34,218 nucleotides of DNA from a virus. A program made the position numbers and the translations under genes. This document shows positions 5,574 through 26,085 of this stretch, piece after piece. The stretch lies in IMG/VR virus record IMGVR_UViG_3300050821_003002, positions 1 to 34,218 of that record; one strand, 5' to 3'. A model generated the notes under the pieces. That model did no database searches. It saw only the letters and a list, made by a program, of their open reading frames with translations, and was not told the origin of the DNA. Positions within the stretch are counted from its first letter, which is position 1; every line of letters starts with the position of its first letter.

Positions 5574-6019
5574 TGCGCGAATAAATCCTTTGGTCTTATA
5601 TTACGTATCTGCAAAGTAGGTATTCCCAATTTGTAAAACTCTAATATTGATTCTTCATTATCATCAATTATAAAATGAATTGTATGAAATATGCCTTTGA
5701 AATGATCTTTAATCAATCTAATCTTTAATTCACTATTCTTGGTATAATCCTCGTCTGGGCGCATCAATACAGTATCGATATCAATTTTGTTTCGCACTAA
5801 CCAACTAACTGTTAGCGTTCTAAATTTTTCTGGTCTTCCAGTAAATCCTATGATTTCGTACCCTGAGGCGCTCAGATTGTTAATCAAATTCGCTACGTTT
5901 TTAAATGGTTTATCATATTTTCCATTCTCGTAATACTCATCCCAAGGCACAGTACCAATCATACTGTCACGCCAAAAAGCGTCAGCTACAGTATGATCAA
6001 TATCGATCACTACAATCAT
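5570..6019 (-). CDS. HAD-superfamily phosphatase (polynucleotide 3'-phosphatase/5'-nucleotidase-like)
   Basis: 149 residues. HAD motif I is DIDHT (D6, D8), motif II TGRPE (from T60), and a later IDDNEES supplies the acidic motif. The D-x-D-x-T / TGR pattern is typical of phage phosphatases related to the 3'-phosphatase domain of polynucleotide kinase and of nucleotidases. No kinase domain is present. The protein ends PKDLFAQ, sharing the DLF tail of the polymerase and ligase, so it may be brought to replication or repair sites rather than acting on free nucleotides. Confidence 0.8.
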   Translation of the reverse strand: MIVVIDIDHTVADAFWRDSMIGTVPWDEYYENGKYDKPFKNVANLINNLSASGYEIIGFTGRPEKFRTLTVSWLVRNKIDIDTVLMRPDEDYTKNSELKIRLIKDHFKGIFHTIHFIIDDNEESILEFYKLGIPTLQIRNIRPKDLFAQ

Positions 6020-15535: not shown

Positions 15536-15558
15536 TTTGATTCCTTAAAAAGAGGAAA

Positions 15559-15597
15559 TGGGAGAGGGAACGGAAGGCTAATTCAGACCCTCTCCCA
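15559..15597 (-). terminator. Hairpin with T-rich tail after three-way-junction RNA copy 2
   Basis: On the minus strand TGGGAGAGGG (15597-15588) pairs perfectly with CCCTCTCCCA (15568-15559), followed by TTTCCTCTTTTT. It is a probable intrinsic terminator or attenuator between the RNA element at 15601-15686 and the gene starting at 15535. The other copy at 16570-16609 has the same design with a different stem. Confidence 0.7.
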
Positions 15598-15600
15598 CCC

Positions 15601-15686
15601 TTTGCCTGACTTTCGTCGCTGCTTGTGACGCCAGTTCCTTGATGTGTGCAGGGCGGGGAACCCTCAAGGCTGGTACGTCAGGCAAA
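15601..15686 (-). ncRNA. Unclassified three-way-junction RNA, copy 2
   Basis: Closed by a perfect 10-base stem (TTTGCCTGAC with GTCAGGCAAA). Inside are a stem CCAG-CC...GG-AA-CTGG with CCTTGA/TCAAGG above it and a short stem CGTC/GACG. Read on the minus strand, the conserved junction is GAC-GTA-CCAGCC...GGAACTGG-CG...CG-AAA-GTC. It begins one base after the upstream stop codon and runs into a terminator-like hairpin. The same core occurs at 16612-16712 with different stem sequences. It is not a hammerhead and I cannot match it to a ribozyme or riboswitch class I know. Confidence 0.7.
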
Positions 15687-15687
15687 C

Positions 15688-16609: not shown

Positions 16610-16611
16610 CC

Positions 16612-16712
16612 GCTTGACTTTCGTGTCTAGGGCTGGAAAATGTCAACAAACCTTCCCTAGTCGCCAGTTCCTGTCATAGATTTGATCGACTCAACAGGCT
16701 GGTACGTCAAGC
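16612..16712 (-). ncRNA. Unclassified three-way-junction RNA, copy 1
   Basis: The outer stem GCTTGAC/GTCAAGC is compatible with that of copy 2. The junction strings GACGTACCAGCC, GGAACTGGCG and CGAAAGTC are identical to copy 2. The two inner arms differ in sequence but still pair (CCTG/CAGG in one, CTAGGG/CCCTAG in the other). This covariation argues for a selected RNA structure. It starts a few bases after the stop of the coiled-coil gene and ends at the hairpin at 16570-16609. Confidence 0.7.
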
Positions 16713-16719
16713 AAAACTT

Positions 16720-18584: not shown

Positions 18585-19607
18585 CTATGGTTTAACGTGT
18601 ACGTGGCGACTAATAACTTCTCCTGAGCCGCGCCAGAAAGGCTGCACGATCCAGTGCTTATCGCCGCGTCTGTTGAGATATGAGCCTACCATATGTATGC
18701 GTGGACTCTTTCGAGTATATCCAAGCGGCATACCTTGTTGATGCATACTGGTTTCTTGGCTAATATGCATGGTAACTATGGTATGGTCTAATCTCTGAGC
18801 TTTATTCATTCTTCTGCGTATTCTATTGAGTGGAGACATATTGACATGCTCTAACTCTACAATTTTTCTGGAAGATGTCAGTAACATTAGACACGACCAA
18901 ACCATAATGTATTCGCCATAAACATCTGCATAGTAATTGGCTACGCGAGCATCTTCATTATCTCCACTAAGCCTAAGTCGATAATGAGGAGGTAACTCCA
19001 AAAACTCTTCCCCCCATTCGGATGGTTTATGGTATGATGTATCCCAAATGCTAAGAAGAGCATCCAATTGGATTTTATTATCCTTCCAAATGTGTGCCAG
19101 GTTAGCATCCAAAAAACTTTTAACAAAACTTGGACTTGCTATTTTACTATAATCAAAATCTAGATCAAAGAAAGCAGATATTGGACTAACATTTGGAGGT
19201 TCACCCTTCCTGATAAAATGGTTACTCCATACCCAAGTTACTTGACCTTTTCTACCAAACTCATCTGTCTCTAACAGAAAACCCAAACGAGTTGGTAATG
19301 GACGATCAGGATACTCGTAAGAATCTATTGAGAATGTTTTTCTCAATTTTTCTCGTCCGCTTTCTGGCCATTCTATCCACATCTTAGTATATGGTATCCT
19401 AAGATGAGCCATGGCTTCTCTAAGCACCTTGGGGCGCCCCAGAGTAAGCTCCACTGCTGTGTGGATAGTAGCGTCGTCAAATAAGAAACGTGGGCATCCT
19501 TTTAATTTTTCTTCCAATATTGGGAAGATACTTACGACAGGATGATTTATCAAACGTCTCTTTTTAGCTTCATGAACAGTTTCTGTTATGTGATCCATAA
19601 GGTACAT
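18585..19607 (-). CDS. Phage protein of unknown function with C-terminal WI-P-WRGSGE motif
   Basis: 340 residues, the largest product of the small-gene operon. No catalytic motif is visible. The end (MVGSYLNRRGDKHWIVQPFWRGSGEVISRHVHVK) recalls the C-terminal pattern of a broad phage family that includes homologues of the anti-CRISPR AcrVA2. I consider this a weak resemblance. The gene lies between small exported and zinc proteins, a region typical of host-takeover factors. Confidence 0.65.
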   Translation of the reverse strand: MYLMDHITETVHEAKKRRLINHPVVSIFPILEEKLKGCPRFLFDDATIHTAVELTLGRPKVLREAMAHLRIPYTKMWIEWPESGREKLRKTFSIDSYEYPDRPLPTRLGFLLETDEFGRKGQVTWVWSNHFIRKGEPPNVSPISAFFDLDFDYSKIASPSFVKSFLDANLAHIWKDNKIQLDALLSIWDTSYHKPSEWGEEFLELPPHYRLRLSGDNEDARVANYYADVYGEYIMVWSCLMLLTSSRKIVELEHVNMSPLNRIRRRMNKAQRLDHTIVTMHISQETSMHQQGMPLGYTRKSPRIHMVGSYLNRRGDKHWIVQPFWRGSGEVISRHVHVKP

Positions 19608-20404: not shown

Positions 20405-20533
20405 CTACGCTACTTGAGGTTGATCGTCTTTATCTTCTGTTGGAGGAGTATCTTCTTTGATCTCTTCCTTTGGAGCTTCTGCTTCTGTCGGAGCACTCAA
20501 TTCTTCATCTTTATGCTCTTCTGGATCTCCCAT
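20405..20533 (-). CDS. 42-residue acidic protein
   Basis: A short gene with one of the best ribosome binding sites here (AAGGAG, 6 bases before the ATG at 20533). The product is almost only Glu, Asp, Pro, Lys and Ala (EEHKDEELSAPTEAEAPKEE) and is likely disordered. It follows hammerhead 6 directly. Highly acidic small phage proteins can be DNA mimics, but nothing here proves that. Confidence 0.65.
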   Translation of the reverse strand: MGDPEEHKDEELSAPTEAEAPKEEIKEDTPPTEDKDDQPQVA

Positions 20534-20557: not shown

Positions 20558-20621
20558 GATCTCATCAGGTGCTGCCTTACAGCACGACTTGGAACGCTTT
20601 GTGGCGCTCCAAGTTTCGATC
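20558..20621 (-). ncRNA. Type II hammerhead ribozyme 6
   Basis: Minus strand, 5' to 3': GATC, GAAA, stem III (CTTGGAGCGCC / GCGTTCCAAG around an ACAAA loop), TC, stem I (GTGCTG-TAAGG-CAGCAC), CTGATGA, GATC. All hammerhead core positions are present. Cleavage is expected after the C opposite base 20586. The first base of stem II is the G of the SWIM gene's TAG stop. The 42-residue gene's ribosome binding site lies about 13 bases downstream. Confidence 0.9.
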
Positions 20622-20857
20622 TATTGGTCTACTTCAGAAACAAATGCTGCTTTGTATGCCATATCGATATGTTTACAATGTTTTTCATGTTGACCAGCAG
20701 GACAATTACAAAAATCAGCTATGGTAGATAGAACAACTTCATACGTTTCCTTTCCATTCTTTAGAATGATATAACAGTCTCCATATATTCTGTCTCCTCG
20801 ATATTCATCGAGAAGCTTTTTGCCATTTGGCTTAACTGTGTACGTTGTTGCTGTCAT
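20621..20857 (-). CDS. SWIM-type zinc-finger mini-protein 2
   Basis: 78 residues. CNCPAG...CKHIDMA (about 50-67) is the SWIM motif, with a beta-rich front half. It resembles the SWIM protein at 14260-14469 in layout but not in detail. Its stop codon is shared with hammerhead 6. Binding to nucleic acid or protein is expected from the motif. Confidence 0.75.
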   Translation of the reverse strand: MTATTYTVKPNGKKLLDEYRGDRIYGDCYIILKNGKETYEVVLSTIADFCNCPAGQHEKHCKHIDMAYKAAFVSEVDQ

Positions 20858-21041
20858 TGGTAACTCCTGTACGATAACTGAGACTAATCACACGTGTCGC
20901 AGTTATTTCTGGTGGTACTTTGTTATAGAAGTCTTGGAGATAATTATAATGAAAATCTCCACTTAATTTCTTTACCATTTGCTCCAGATAAATGTCTACT
21001 CTGGACATCCATTTGTCAAATGCATCTTCTTGTTCTGTCAT
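20832..21041 (-). CDS. Conserved phage hypothetical
   Basis: 69 residues. FDKWMSRVDIYLEQMVKKLSGDFHYNYLQDFYNKVPPEITA follows a common small-phage-protein pattern (W---V, D---L-D-Y, PP--A) of unknown function. It overlaps the SWIM gene start by 26 bases. Confidence 0.65.
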   Translation of the reverse strand: MTEQEDAFDKWMSRVDIYLEQMVKKLSGDFHYNYLQDFYNKVPPEITATRVISLSYRTGVTNDSNNVHS

Positions 21042-21318
21042 TATGTACCTTCATATGTTGATCAAGATGCCCTGCACACACTATTTTCTTGCATTTTGGG
21101 CAAAACGCAACCACACGACGCTTAATTTTAAAATATCCAAGCGGTACAATCATAACCTGCACATTTCCTATGACTTTATATGCAAACATATCTGGTGGAA
21201 TATGTCCGTGTGCTGGTATCCCAAAAAGTGTCAAAATATGGTCGTTCCGCATCTGCCATTTAAATTTTGGATATTGTGGATCAATATAATGCAGATTATC
21301 ATGTATTTCAATGTCCAT
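21016..21318 (-). CDS. Zinc-binding protein with CPKC-H-H end
   Basis: 100 residues from the ATG at 21318, which has a strong CAGGAGA site. The end, CPKCKKIVCAGHLDQHMKVH, is a probable Cys/His zinc site; the rest is beta-rich. A longer frame from 21384 would run through a hairpin and is rejected. Confidence 0.68.
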   Translation of the reverse strand: MDIEIHDNLHYIDPQYPKFKWQMRNDHILTLFGIPAHGHIPPDMFAYKVIGNVQVMIVPLGYFKIKRRVVAFCPKCKKIVCAGHLDQHMKVHNDRTRRCI

Positions 21319-21348
21319 TTTATTCTCCTGGTTAGTGGTCTCAAATGA

Positions 21349-21376
21349 CCTAAAAGGTGGCGCATTGCTGCGCCAC
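21349..21376 (-). terminator. Hairpin with CCTTTTAGG tail
   Basis: GTGGCGC pairs with GCGCCAC over a 6-base loop on the minus strand, then CCTTTTAGG and TCATTT. It fills the only gap between the hammerheads of 20-24 kb that holds no ribozyme. The tail is shared with the hairpin at 19650-19681. Confidence 0.6.
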
Positions 21377-21393
21377 AAGTTCAATAAATTTTC

Positions 21394-21600
21394 TTAGACT
21401 GGTGGATGATTATAGTTCTCCATAATCAACATCTCTGCACGAGTTGGAGTGCAGGTGCAACGCTCATTCTCACAAGCGCGCCTGTACTCAGCTTCATGAG
21501 CCTTTCTGTATTCAGCGATCTTTTGAGCCCTTGTCTTAGGCTTCTCAACCGGAGTGATAGTATCTCCCTCAAACGCAGATTTGGTATCAATCTTCGTCAT
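21394..21600 (-). CDS. Small charged protein
   Basis: 68 residues from the ATG at 21600, which has AAGGAG 8 bases upstream. It is basic in the middle (KPKTRAQKIAEYRKAHEAEYRR) with a CENERCTC cysteine cluster. No family is recognised. The frame to 21639 would include half of hammerhead 5 and is rejected. Confidence 0.65.
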   Translation of the reverse strand: MTKIDTKSAFEGDTITPVEKPKTRAQKIAEYRKAHEAEYRRACENERCTCTPTRAEMLIMENYNHPPV

Positions 21601-21619
21601 GCTACCTTCTCCTTTTTCT

Positions 21620-21676
21620 GACCTCGTCAGGCGTTGCATTACAACGCGACAGCCAATCGCACTGGCTGTTTCGGTC
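21620..21676 (-). ncRNA. Type II hammerhead ribozyme 5
   Basis: Minus strand: GACC, GAAA, stem III (CAGCCA / TGGCTG around a short loop), TC, stem I (GCGTTG-TAATG-CAACGC), CTGACGA, GGTC. The core is complete. Cleavage is expected after the C opposite base 21648. The RNA begins on the base after the TAA stop of the membrane-protein gene and ends 19 bases before the next ATG. Stem sequences differ from the other copies but still pair. Confidence 0.93.
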
Positions 21677-21844
21677 TTATATCAATGTAATTACCCAAAC
21701 ACAAAATATAAAAAATAACAGCAATGGAATGCATCCAAGATTATTATTGGGTCCTTTCCACGCTGTTATCAGTCCTTGCGAGTGCAAGTTACTGGCGATA
21801 ACCATAACTACGACTATCACCAGTAGAATAATGAAGATATGCAT
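21677..21844 (-). CDS. Small membrane protein, two transmembrane segments
   Basis: 55 residues from the ATG at 21844 (GGAGG upstream, TAATG overlap with the previous stop). Two hydrophobic spans (about 3-20, IFIILLVIVVVMVIA, and about 37-53, IPLLLFFIFCVWVITL) are joined by a short polar loop. The size fits a holin-like or superinfection-exclusion protein, but no lysis genes are nearby, so I leave it unnamed. Confidence 0.68.
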   Translation of the reverse strand: MHIFIILLVIVVVMVIASNLHSQGLITAWKGPNNNLGCIPLLLFFIFCVWVITLI

Positions 21845-22149
21845 TATCCATACCTCCAATCACCAGCGACAGAGTATGACTCATAATCGCCGTTCTCACG
21901 CGCAGCCAAACGACGATCTTCAGCATTTTGCTGAAGTTCTTCGATGCGCTGCTTTTTTACAACGCGATTTCCATGACATGCAGCACATATAATGTCATAT
22001 ATTCCATTGCGATAATCTTCAGCAAAGTCTGGATCTTCTCTGAAGTCGTCCGCAGTCAATCCATGTGCATCTATATTAGGATTGACTGTTTTGCCCTCGC
22101 CATTGCAGACTGGGCATACGATCCATGGGTCACTTTTCTTCTTTGACAT
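21844..22149 (-). CDS. DnaJ-like zinc-finger protein (CPVCNGEGKTVNP)
   Basis: 101 residues. CPVCNGEGKTVNPNIDAHGL, a DPDFAEDYRNGIYDIICAAC segment and HGNRVV are a well-known phage and alphaproteobacterial pattern, with the two CxxC pairs of a DnaJ-type zinc finger. The function is unknown. It follows hammerhead 4 with a good AGGAG site. Confidence 0.75.
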   Translation of the reverse strand: MSKKKSDPWIVCPVCNGEGKTVNPNIDAHGLTADDFREDPDFAEDYRNGIYDIICAACHGNRVVKKQRIEELQQNAEDRRLAARENGDYESYSVAGDWRYG

Positions 22150-22169
22150 TTTTATTTCTCCTGGTTACT

Positions 22170-22226
22170 GATCTCATCAGGCAGCGCCACACGCTGCGAC
22201 TGGCAATCGCACTGCCAGTTTCGATC
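22170..22226 (-). ncRNA. Type II hammerhead ribozyme 4
   Basis: Minus strand: GATC, GAAA, stem III (CTGGCA / TGCCAG, perfect), TC, stem I (GCAGCG-TGTGG-CGCTGC, perfect), CTGATGA, GATC. Cleavage is expected after the C opposite base 22198. The first base of stem II is the G of the upstream TAG stop. This copy and copy 6 have U at the variable core position and GATC stem II; the others have C and GACC/GGTC. Confidence 0.94.
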
Positions 22227-22450
22227 TATACTTTTTCAACTTCTTTGGTTCGTTCCAAAAGGACAGTAGAAAGAGCTTGTATGAGTTCAATTATATCTTC
22301 GTTACTCAATTGACGAATTAAATACCAATTTTTATATCTAAGTTGAAGTAATGTTATATCTTTGTGAGTAAATATTCGTATTGCGTTATCAGTGTGATAT
22401 CGTTTTAACTTACCCATAGTAACATCATCTTCGATTCTATGATCTGACAT
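22226..22450 (-). CDS. Hypothetical protein
   Basis: 74 residues, mixed charge, with no recognised family. GGGAG precedes the ATG. Its TAG stop supplies the first base of hammerhead 4. It overlaps the next gene upstream by 14 bases. Confidence 0.65.
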   Translation of the reverse strand: MSDHRIEDDVTMGKLKRYHTDNAIRIFTHKDITLLQLRYKNWYLIRQLSNEDIIELIQALSTVLLERTKEVEKV

Positions 22451-22688
22451 TTTTTTCTCCCATCAGGACAACATTACTGTTGGCGAGCGCCCTCGCATGG
22501 AGCGCCTCTTCGATTGTGTTAGCAGCCAATGTAAGCAATTTAGCTCGCGCGTCAAGATCTTTTGCTTGACCAGGCTTCTTTGGTGGAGTATTCTCCAGAA
22601 CCCAGTCTATTTTCTTGACTGTTGTTCTGACAGTAGAAGCAAGCTCTTGAGCTTGTTCTACTTCTAGTTCAATGGTAACTTTTGACAT
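22437..22688 (-). CDS. Hypothetical helical protein
   Basis: 83 residues, a short beta start (SKVTIELEVEQ) then helices. No family is recognised. GAGGTAGCAAA before the ATG is the same leader as in the genes at 23052 and 33312. It is the first gene after hammerhead 3. Confidence 0.65.
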   Translation of the reverse strand: MSKVTIELEVEQAQELASTVRTTVKKIDWVLENTPPKKPGQAKDLDARAKLLTLAANTIEEALHARALANSNVVLMGEKNVRS

Positions 22689-22708
22689 TTTGCTACCTCA
22701 TAATTACT

Positions 22709-22774
22709 GACCTCGTCAGCTAGCGTCTAACGCTAGGACTATGGGGCGCTTTGTGGCGCCCCATAGTTTCGGTC
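22709..22774 (-). ncRNA. Type II hammerhead ribozyme 3
   Basis: Minus strand: GACC, GAAA, a long stem III (CTATGGGGCGC / GCGCCCCATAG around CACAAA), TC, stem I (CTAGCGT-TAG-ACGCTAG, perfect), CTGACGA, GGTC. Cleavage is expected after the C opposite base 22737. The first base of stem II is the last base of the upstream TAG stop codon. Confidence 0.94.
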
Positions 22775-23052
22775 TATTTTCTTATCAATTGAACTTTATT
22801 GTTTTTCTCAATACAGTTATAATAATCTCCAGCTATAATAGAAATACTTCCAAATTCCCACCTAATTTTGGATATTTTCTTATTTGGAAACAATGTACTG
22901 CACTCTTCAATGGAAGTCTTCTTCAACATTAAATTGAAGAGAACATCTCTATCTGAGCCTGGGCGAAAACCTTTATTTGGATCAAAATTACTTTGTGCAA
23001 CTCTGTTTCCAGAATCTATTTCAAATTTCTCTCTCTGTGTTGGTCTTGACAT
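22774..23052 (-). CDS. Hypothetical protein
   Basis: 92 residues, basic, two Cys, with no recognised family. It is flanked by hammerheads 2 and 3, so the model predicts that this gene is released as a single-gene mRNA. Confidence 0.65.
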   Translation of the reverse strand: MSRPTQREKFEIDSGNRVAQSNFDPNKGFRPGSDRDVLFNLMLKKTSIEECSTLFPNKKISKIRWEFGSISIIAGDYYNCIEKNNKVQLIRK

Positions 23053-23072
23053 TTTGCTACCTCTTGGTTACT

Positions 23073-23136
23073 GACCTCGTCAGGCAGCGAGGAACGCTGC
23101 GACTATGGGGCGCTTTGTGCGCCCATAGTTTCGGTC
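23073..23136 (-). ncRNA. Type II hammerhead ribozyme 2
   Basis: Minus strand: GACC, GAAA, stem III (CTATGGGCGC / GCGCCCCATAG, one extra C), TC, stem I (GCAGCG with CGCTGC over a 5-base loop), CTGACGA, GGTC. Cleavage is expected after the C opposite base 23101. It starts on the base after a TAA stop. Stem III resembles copy 3, so the two may be a recent duplication, while stem I resembles copy 4. Confidence 0.93.
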
Positions 23137-23556
23137 TTATGACCCAATATCTAGTAACCAAACACCGTCTGATCCTTTAGACACACTCTCAATAAATAGA
23201 TCATTAAGAATGTGTCCCCAAATACCGTGCTTACCGTCAGTTTTAGGACGATTAACCAAAATCGAATCTAGTGGAGCACTAGCTGGTAGTGTTCTGGTTT
23301 CATCTTCTTCGTCGTAAATCTTGACATATCCTTGAGCAATAGAATCAATCAGATCGCACAATCTCCACGGCTTTTTGCCGTCGAATTGACGAAGCACAGG
23401 ATGGGAAAGTGGATAATCAAATCTAATTGAGATTCTATTTGAAGTATCTACTATCATCTGTTCGCTATGCCCTTTCAATTGAATAAGATCAGGATCTATT
23501 TCATCCTCGTTACGATTTATCCACGAATTTATGTGTATATCTAGGTTGATTTTCAT
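23137..23556 (-). CDS. Hypothetical protein
   Basis: 139 residues, beta-rich (MKINLDIHINSWINR..., ISIRFDYPLSHPVLR), with no known motif. AGGAGA precedes the ATG. It lies between hammerheads 1 and 2. Confidence 0.68.
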   Translation of the reverse strand: MKINLDIHINSWINRNEDEIDPDLIQLKGHSEQMIVDTSNRISIRFDYPLSHPVLRQFDGKKPWRLCDLIDSIAQGYVKIYDEEDETRTLPASAPLDSILVNRPKTDGKHGIWGHILNDLFIESVSKGSDGVWLLDIGS

Positions 23557-23574
23557 TTTATATCTCCTATTATT

Positions 23575-23638
23575 GACCTCGTCAGGTGCTGCCTTACAGC
23601 ACGACTGTGGGCGCTTGTAGCGCCCACTAGTTTCGGTC
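23575..23638 (-). ncRNA. Type II hammerhead ribozyme 1
   Basis: Minus strand: GACC, GAAA, stem III (CTAGTGGGCGC / GCGCCCACAG with one bulged A), TC, stem I (GTGCTG-TAAGG-CAGCAC, identical to copy 6), CTGACGA, GGTC. Cleavage is expected after the C opposite base 23603. It starts on the base after a TAA stop. It is the first ribozyme met by transcription from the 24.56 kb promoter. Confidence 0.92.
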
Positions 23639-23797
23639 TTATTTCTCTTTTTTGGTAAATTTCACAGTAGGTAGTGAAGGTGGAGTTCTTTTACTGCGAT
23701 TAGAATGAGCAATTGCAGCTCCTACAAAAACTTTTTGAAGCGTAGACAATGGTTTCTGCTTCTGAAAAGGCGGTCTTTTGAACTTATTATTGATCAT
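23639..23797 (-). CDS. 52-residue basic protein
   Basis: Very basic (MINNKFKRPPFQKQK... FTKKEK) with AAGGAG 9 bases before the ATG at 23797. It is probably nucleic-acid binding by charge alone. Its TAA is followed immediately by hammerhead 1. Confidence 0.68.
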   Translation of the reverse strand: MINNKFKRPPFQKQKPLSTLQKVFVGAAIAHSNRSKRTPPSLPTVKFTKKEK

Positions 23798-24283: not shown

Positions 24284-24307
24284 TTTGTTCTCCTAAACGC
24301 CAAAAAA

Positions 24308-24546
24308 CTTCTAAACAAATATCTATATCCGCCACTTTGCACTGCCTCCGTACCGAGGCCAGCGCCCGTCCCGTCGCCTATTTGCGGCTTCGGGTCCCAG
24401 TAGAGCTTGCTCCAGCAAGTTATATCCGGGAGGATGGCTGTTCGCTACTCTTGCGCCACTGTTGCATGTCTTGTTAGACCTGTGACGCAACTAGCCCTTA
24501 TGGAGGGGGCTTCGGATGAGCGAGGATATAGATATATGTTTAGAAG
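24308..24546 (-). ncRNA. Unclassified structured RNA of about 240 nt
   Basis: GC-rich gene-free block. The ends (24546-24524 and 24330-24308) form a 23-base stem with a single T-T mismatch, and on the minus strand a TTTTTT run follows directly. Inside I can draw at least four hairpins: AGCCC/GGGCT, GTTGC/GCAAC with GTCT-AACA-AGAC, CTTGC-TGGA-GCAAG within AGTAG/CTACT, and GCGCT-GCCTC/GAGGC-AGTGC. CCGAAGCC occurs twice. TATAAT lies 16-21 bases upstream. I see no RNase P, tmRNA, 6S, retron or group I/II signature. It may be a free small RNA or a leader of the ribozyme operon. Confidence 0.75.
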
Positions 24547-24561
24547 TTGGGTTGGGCCTCT

Positions 24562-24649: not shown

Positions 24650-24780
24650 ATATAGGGAAAATACCATGATATTCAATGAATGATGATGTATCCAACGTGT
24701 TGGTTGCGCCCAGAATTCAATCAATGAATGAATAAAATAGCGTCTTAGAGGCGCCAATATTATGATTATCACTGTTACAT

Positions 24781-24799
24781 TGTTACACTGTTACGTAGT
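24781..24799 (+). repeat. 19-base inverted repeat, left copy
   Basis: TGTTACACTGTTACGTAGT, an exact reverse complement of 26059-26077. It is preceded by two more TGTTAC units (ACTGTTAC ATTGTTAC), so it also looks iterated. It ends next to the stop of the DUF3631 gene. Confidence 0.75.
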
Positions 24800-24800
24800 G

Positions 24801-25817: not shown

Positions 25818-25933
25818 AACTGTTTCTCCTAGCGTGTGATGATTGAGATATACGCCACAGAGTTACATGTCACAGTGTCTAATATTCACGATGACAAACA
25901 GCCTGCGATCGGTGATTTGTCCGATTACAGAAC

Positions 25934-25962
25934 AGTATAACACATTACTAATGATGATGCAA
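25934..25962 (-). promoter_or_regulatory. Strong predicted promoter of the DUF3631 gene
   Basis: On the minus strand TTGCAT (25962-25957), a 17-base spacer and TATACT (25939-25934). This is the best sigma-70-like match in the window. It leaves a leader of about 110 bases before the ATG at 25817. Confidence 0.65.
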
Positions 25963-26058
25963 GTGTTATTTTCGTATGAATTAGATGAATACTGGAGTCA
26001 ATATATTTAATGATTGACTATATATTGTCAAAAATAAACGTGCCCGATAGGCTACGTA

Positions 26059-26077
26059 ACTACGTAACAGTGTAACA
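26059..26077 (-). repeat. 19-base inverted repeat, right copy
   Basis: ACTACGTAACAGTGTAACA, the exact reverse complement of 24781-24799, next to the terminase stop codon. With the left copy it brackets a 1.3 kb unit that contains only the DUF3631 gene and its control region. Confidence 0.75.
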
Positions 26078-26085
26078 GATGATAT

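Follow-up and report, generated by a model that had tools for sequence, protein, structure and literature searches.

On the minus strand of the viral record IMGVR_UViG_3300050821_003002, analysed over its full 34,218 bases (the window), an operon of small open reading frames (ORFs) carries six matches to GAYCGAAA-N-CTGANGAGRTC between positions 20558 and 23638 (Table 1). Each match lies in an element of 57-66 nucleotides (nt) with the complete core of a hammerhead ribozyme (CUGANGA, GAAA, U16.1 and C17), as read by eye and with a scanner that requires the core and three stems. In all six copies, stem I is closed, with 6 base pairs (bp) and a 5-nt loop, stem III is closed, with 9-12 pairs, and stem II is open and consists of 4 bp, either GACC/GGUC or GAUC/GAUC. 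The CUGANGA...GAAA...UH arrangement with its three stems identifies the elements as hammerheads, in agreement with pairing and covariation, while the loop-closed stems I and III together with the open stem II assign them to type II. A first-pass annotation of this DNA had predicted six full type II hammerheads on this strand; the core, the stems and a shuffle control bear this out, and the cut sites after C17 fall exactly where it had placed them. Its expectation that the products carry stem III at their 3' end and stem I at their 5' end follows from the type II topology.

Table 1. Hammerhead array of the window with the intervening ORFs and related features (nt, nucleotides; aa, amino acids; R1, covariance model built from family copies)
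Feature	Position	Strand	Remarks
Type II hammerhead, copy 1	23575-23638	minus	cut after 23603; directly after stop TAA of ORF 23639-23797; 74.2 bits with R1
139-aa ORF	23137-23556	minus	sole ORF between copies 1 and 2; without family match
Type II hammerhead, copy 2	23073-23136	minus	cut after 23101; directly after stop TAA of ORF 23137-23556
92-aa ORF	22774-23052	minus	sole ORF between copies 2 and 3; without family match
Type II hammerhead, copy 3	22709-22774	minus	cut after 22737; G of stop TAG (ORF 22774-23052) is first stem II base
Competing "clamp" hairpin CUGAC-GAG-GUCAG, copy 3	22707-22719	minus	pairs catalytic CUGA and N7; excludes stem II
Two overlapping ORFs, 83 and 74 aa	22226-22688	minus	between copies 3 and 4; overlap without hammerhead
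Type II hammerhead, copy 4	22170-22226	minus	cut after 22198; one-base overlap with stop TAG of ORF 22226-22450
Two overlapping ORFs, 101 aa (CxxCxGxG-like cysteines) and 60/55 aa	21677-22149	minus	between copies 4 and 5
Type II hammerhead, copy 5	21620-21676	minus	cut after 21648; directly after stop TAA of ORF 21677-21859
Four ORFs, 68, 100, 69 and 78 aa	20621-21600	minus	between copies 5 and 6
75-nt gap without hammerhead	21319-21393	minus	between copies 5 and 6; GTGGCGCA-GCAA-TGCGCCAC-CTTTT hairpin and GGTC-ATTTGA-GACC hairpin
Type II hammerhead, copy 6	20558-20621	minus	cut after 20586; one-base overlap with stop TAG of ORF 20621-20857
42-aa acidic ORF, family f4	20405-20533	minus	downstream of copy 6; hammerhead precedes this ORF in most relatives
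PNKP-type 3'-phosphatase (HAD), 149 aa	5570-6019	minus	Pfam PF25109; closest solved chain Pnkp1

Over 300 dinucleotide shuffles of the window, the strict scanner detected a single element in total, compared to six in the real sequence; the reversed sequences of all loci gave none. The annotation had also described stems I and III as differing in most copies yet remaining paired. Pairing is indeed kept and stem III has six distinct sequences, but stem I has five, being identical in copies 1 and 6. A search of the window with R1 found no seventh or degenerate copy.

Relatives of the 340-aa protein encoded at 18585-19607, sharing 75-100% identity with it, are encoded by 11 viral contigs. One of these, L127, carries an array identical to that of the window and represents nearly the same phage. 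Another eight kin contigs, searched whole, hold 7, 6, 5, 6, 3, 3, 3 and 3 hammerhead copies. These contigs span 12-81 kb, and the 3-7 copies of each are confined to one region, bar a single opposite-strand exception. In a family alignment of 34 distinct copies, aligned from sequence alone, all 442 of 442 cells over 13 tested pairs are paired, with compensatory changes on both sides in eight of the 13. The covariation score is 0.554, compared to 0.187 for shuffled alignments and at most 0.147 when partners are slid, and a shift of the partners by one to three columns abolishes pairing. R1 matches 45 places in the window and its kin, all at E ≤ 5e-12, and nothing between there and E = 10. The copy preceding the f4 ORF (42-48 aa) stands at the same junction in the window, L128, L130-L133 and L136. 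The gene content between the hammerheads differs among the relatives, as judged from a layout comparison that is suggestive and carries no statistic. As for cultured relatives, no near DNA match to the window was found in a phage collection, and no hammerhead in the examined parts of the two nearest records of that collection; the window DNA polymerase is at most 35% identical to those of named phages.

Some family copies depart from the common pattern. In L135 and L137 (both 5770-5830), the orthologous f4-junction hammerhead has one extra U between A9 and stem II; these copies may have decayed and are perhaps inactive, with the second hairpin described below still possible there. The opposite-strand exception, L130 3408-3478 (minus), lies between a TGA stop and the AGGAG-ATG of its own strand, so the hammerhead follows coding direction and not replicon direction.

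The first-pass annotation had let its case depend in part on the Rfam Hammerhead_II model (RF02276), and this model matches none of the six window copies, either at gathering level (37 bits) or at E = 10. Absence of hammerheads was rejected as the explanation; a bias of the model accounts for the null. RF02276 has the same permutation, core and stem order as the window elements but describes the pseudoknotted, long-loop form: it matches elements with a long loop I, whereas loop I of the window copies is UNANG-like and 5 nt long, and an unpaired A invariably precedes their stem II. Among 47 other short-loop copies (17 loci), it detects four and misses 43. In the window, loop I does not pair over 4 bp or more with the tail downstream of stem II: as read from the sequences, its 5 nt have no such complement there, unlike in L038 and L093. 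In the published type II consensus this pseudoknot occurs in a majority of examples (PMC3088659), so that the short-loop form is under-modelled rather than excluded.

Pattern scans over viral and genome contigs show how abundant this form is. All patterns fixed parts of the core, and some further required G-U....C within the hairpin of stem I and C or T at N7; therefore, only features left free count as evidence. The counts that follow from these scans are among the matches listed. They comprise at least 443 distinct type II elements, 376 of them with a 17-nt stem I hairpin. All five free stem I positions are paired in 389 of 425 pattern matches (family copies included), stem II has 4 bp in 376 of the same 425, and in loop I of the short-loop elements A is preferred at position 3 and G at position 5. 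An unpaired A just before stem II is present in 369/376 short-loop elements. Stacks occur in six other records, each on one strand: nine copies to none in both L140 and L026 (in the latter at both contig ends), seven to none in L217, five to none in both L162 and L153, and four to none in L148. The stacks of L140, L026, L217, L162, L246 and L148, of 4-9 copies on one strand, share the form of the window elements and mostly the same placement between stop codon and Shine-Dalgarno site, but differ in genes and stem sequences and have the second hairpin in some cases only. Nothing in the phage collection matches the array regions of L140, L217 or L246. In addition, contigs of Phycicoccus jejuensis NRRL B-24460 (L376) and Streptomyces iakyrus NRRL ISP-5482 (L396) carry three-copy short-loop arrays of near-identical elements and could possibly serve as cultured test systems. 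Since the standard model overlooks most of this abundant form, Rfam-based censuses of phage hammerheads are likely too low.

The elements are tied closely to the reading frames around them. All six window copies have a stop codon fused to stem II, either TAA directly before it (copies 1, 2 and 5) or TAG sharing its G (copies 3, 4 and 6), and as each copy begins at a stop codon, the unpaired A before stem II belongs to that codon. Lying just 5' of its stem II strand, this A may be equivalent to the A (L6) of the canonical loop contact in other hammerheads. Such fusion is seen in 29/38 family copies, compared to 115/338 other short-loop elements among the matches listed, and its presence in all six window elements is new. 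A Shine-Dalgarno site and start codon follow within 120 nt in 37/38 family copies and in 279/338 of the other listed elements; in nearly all family copies the start codon lies 18-25 nt past stem II, behind a Shine-Dalgarno site.

Several coding-strand copies lie between genes of one inferred transcription unit, the arrangement of a clustered, mRNA-segmenting array. Cutting would release inner fragments of 502, 364, 539, 550 and 1062 nt with 1, 1, 2, 2 and 4 ORFs. The structure, covariation, orthologous placement and position between stop codon and Shine-Dalgarno site point to the self-segmenting message that had been proposed, but its segments would not all be single genes. Similarly, six gaps do hold elements, but they are not strictly consecutive: the gap at 21319-21393 has no hammerhead and several junctions are overlaps. 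The overlapping gene pairs of the array (overlaps of 1-26 nt) have no hammerhead between them and look translationally coupled. The double hairpin in the 75-nt gap, with its GCAA loop and short U-run, is terminator-like and kept at the same junction in relatives; it was rejected as a degenerate hammerhead because both core strands are absent. A search for coding-strand intrinsic terminators (a G+C hairpin followed by a U-run) found none at the six elements and one in this gap.

Within CUGANGA, N7 is the sole free base, and it is unpaired in the hammerhead fold. In the window it takes part in a second possible pairing, the clamp hairpin of copy 3, which recurs identically in copies 2, 4 and 5, as a variant in copy 6 and in a 4-bp form in copy 1. 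RNAfold favours CUGAN-GAG-N'UCAG, or a close variant, over the core plus stem II in five of the six copies. UCAG is found within stem II and the following 12 nt in 34/38 family copies, compared to 91/338 other short-loop and 0/39 long-loop elements among the matches listed, and it is the commonest of all orders of its four letters in the short-loop groups. Where UCAG lies beyond stem II in listed elements outside the family, the base before it complements N7 in 44 of 47 cases (41/44 with one element per locus): C-G occurs 29 times, U-A 15 times, U-G once and C-A never (Fisher p = 5e-11). These 47 elements vary in their distance to UCAG, and their stems are diverse, with 44 different sequences for stem I and 40 for stem III. 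In the family, N7 is tied to the second stem II base (C with G 22, U with A 10 and C with A 5), and the second hairpin, abutting stem I, is the predicted fold of 37/38 3' products.

A composition effect behind UCAG was rejected, as ordinary tail bases give an odds ratio of 1.6 compared to the near-complete separation by N7. Pairing of UCAG with an upstream CUGA or stop codon rather than with the core was likewise rejected for want of an excess (7/47 vs 38/246). A cruder count of any pairing between the core and downstream bases in predicted 3' products gives 171/337 outside the family against about 130 with shuffled tails, a weak test, and 18/39 in the long-loop class. Because this count is weak outside the family, the claim for a second hairpin rests on the N7 covariation and the UCAG enrichment. 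The covariation of N7 with N' is comparative evidence for a pairing that excludes the active fold.

Clustered hammerheads have a history. Perreault et al. (2011) described phage and prophage clusters flanking single genes or short gene blocks, proposed that they cut transcripts into operon- or gene-length mRNAs, and reported cleavage of tandem arrays in vitro and of an Agrobacterium tumefaciens triple in E. coli (PMC3088659). The window array resembles these clusters in having several copies around single genes or blocks and in inviting the same processing proposal; it differs in packing six into 3.1 kb, all of the type II short-loop form and all fused to stop codons, and its family differs in orthologous placement across a phage family and in the covarying second hairpin. 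The hammerhead variant of haloviruses HF1/HF2 likewise belongs to a polycistronic transcript of a phage, a short way upstream of a start codon, and has a mapped 5' end near its cut site, but is single and has a variant core (PMC3088659). Neighbouring hammerheads flanking small unknown ORFs in phage-related DNA were also noted by de la Pena et al. (2017; PMC6155905). A literature search, with subscription papers outside its scope, turned up no account of fusion to stop codons, of runs of six or more elements, or of the second hairpin. The first-pass suggestion that no stack of six was known is only partly right: clusters with the same proposal and with demonstrated cleavage were published in 2011, and nine-copy stacks occur in two other phage contigs. 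The array is genuine, a strong instance of a known phenomenon that it also extends. The stack is less novel than first thought, and the processing interpretation is likely but already published.

From the presence, pairing, covariation, placement and conservation of the elements, and from their covarying second hairpin, we infer cleavage in vivo, its timing, its effect on mRNA stability or expression, and the role of the hairpin. The six elements are probably active short-loop type II hammerheads; as the small-gene operon is transcribed, or shortly afterwards, they would cut its transcript. On transcription, each hammerhead would fold and cut after C17, between the stop codon and the Shine-Dalgarno site. 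The upstream message would end with its stop codon, GACC or GAUC, GAAA, the stem III hairpin and a 2',3'-cyclic phosphate, while the downstream message would start with the stem I hairpin and a 5'-OH, shortly before its own Shine-Dalgarno site. Type II is the sole circular permutation that leaves a closed hairpin at the cut on both products. Once the upstream strand of stem II had left, the catalytic CUGAN could pair with N'UCAG, and the resulting second hairpin, abutting stem I, would block religation and shield the 5'-OH end. As a general proposal, many phage type II hammerheads might be two-state elements: a stop-fused active ribozyme and, once it has cut, a covarying second hairpin in which the catalytic strand is captured. 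We offer this tentatively, at somewhat less than even confidence.

Several points weigh against active cleavage as the explanation. RNAfold, which ignores tertiary contacts, gives the intact RNA alternative folds that are 2-8 kcal/mol more stable, most of them containing the competing hairpin; stem II has just 4 bp; several junctions of the same operon have no hammerhead; and four of 18 consensus-fitting hammerheads tested were inactive (PMC3088659). Cleavage of the window elements is likely, on computational grounds.

As the competing hairpin is favoured in the intact RNA, it might inhibit cutting and not follow it. On this reading, the main rival, the elements would be regulated switches, held off by the CUGAN/N'UCAG hairpin until a ribosome leaving the stop codon, a protein or Mg2+ released them for conditional cleavage. 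The covariation of this hairpin with N7 and its predicted stability suit such a role, and since the A beside stem II, and in some cases the first G of this stem, belongs to the stop codon, a ribosome terminating there would sit over stem II. However, UCAG is transcribed within a few bases of the core, which gives a separate off state little time to form, RNAfold disregards stabilisation by the core and by tertiary contacts, and UCAG is missing from 247/338 other short-loop elements among the matches listed, with no candidate signal to be seen; regulation of this kind is therefore considered unlikely. Inert hairpins are far less probable again: stems I and III would be stable hairpins on their own and could serve as paired ends or weak terminators without any cutting, but almost all copies retain the unpaired catalytic letters although the stems vary, and stem III is not followed by a U-run on the coding strand.

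The variable genes between hammerheads raise the further possibility that the repeats act mainly as short homologies for gain and loss of small accessory genes, with RNA cleavage secondary. Identical stem III modules do occur with different stem I modules, and the genes flanked by published clusters are not constant either (PMC3088659). DNA homology nevertheless leaves unexplained the intact core, the RNA pairing kept despite divergence of the stems, the strand and stop-codon placement and the N7 covariation, and variable genes are present outside the array too, so that recombination seams appear improbable as the main function. Rejoining of cut ends into circular or shuffled RNAs by phage repair enzymes seems hardly credible. 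The phage does encode the PNKP-like 3'-phosphatase, which is kept in 6/8 kin contigs and has a 31% identical counterpart in the nine-copy L140 contig, as well as an ATP-dependent ligase resembling DNA ligases, but both enzymes are widespread in the DNA metabolism of phages, religation would be opposed by the second hairpin, and spliced or circular products were sought elsewhere and none found (PMC3088659). Under the preferred reading, in which the hairpin forms on the downstream product after cutting, it could be speculated that the phosphatase acts on the cyclic-phosphate ends in RNA-end repair.

The remainder of the window is that of a phage, with genes for a DnaE-type DNA polymerase, an exonuclease, ThyX, a DNA ligase, a primase/helicase and a protein like the Sf6 terminase small subunit. 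Two similar intergenic RNAs on the minus strand (15536-15687 and 16610-16719) share CTTGAC/CCTGAC-GTACCAGCC...GGAACTGGCG...CGAAAGTCAAG/GTCAGG and a predicted three-way junction. Stretches 72-80% identical to them occur in L130, L132, L135 and L137, and shorter ones in L136; they match no Rfam family and are candidates for a new structured RNA. A G+C-rich structured non-coding stretch at 24284-24444 (minus), upstream of the 157-aa ORF that precedes the array, has no Rfam match even when searched alone; a 25-nt part of it recurs inverted at 24524-24548, and the stretch is found only in the near-identical L127. Finally, two long non-coding gaps hold palindromic repeats (GTAACAGTGTTAC-like and TTCATTCATTGATTGAAT-like) at 24652-24800 and 25818-26085, possibly operators or an origin.

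The functional role of bacterial and phage hammerheads has been called an open question (PMC6155905), and the reason for their associations unknown (PMC10085705). The stop-fused orthologous arrays, the more than 300 similarly placed elements and the covarying second fold allow site-by-site predictions of RNA ends, product stability and irreversibility. The covarying second hairpin is the foremost part worth testing, beside the stop-codon fusion and the Rfam gap for the short-loop form. If the two-state reading is true, a single 65-nt element would terminate translation, sever the message, place a hairpin on each of the new ends and prevent reversal of the cut, with up to nine such elements in an array.

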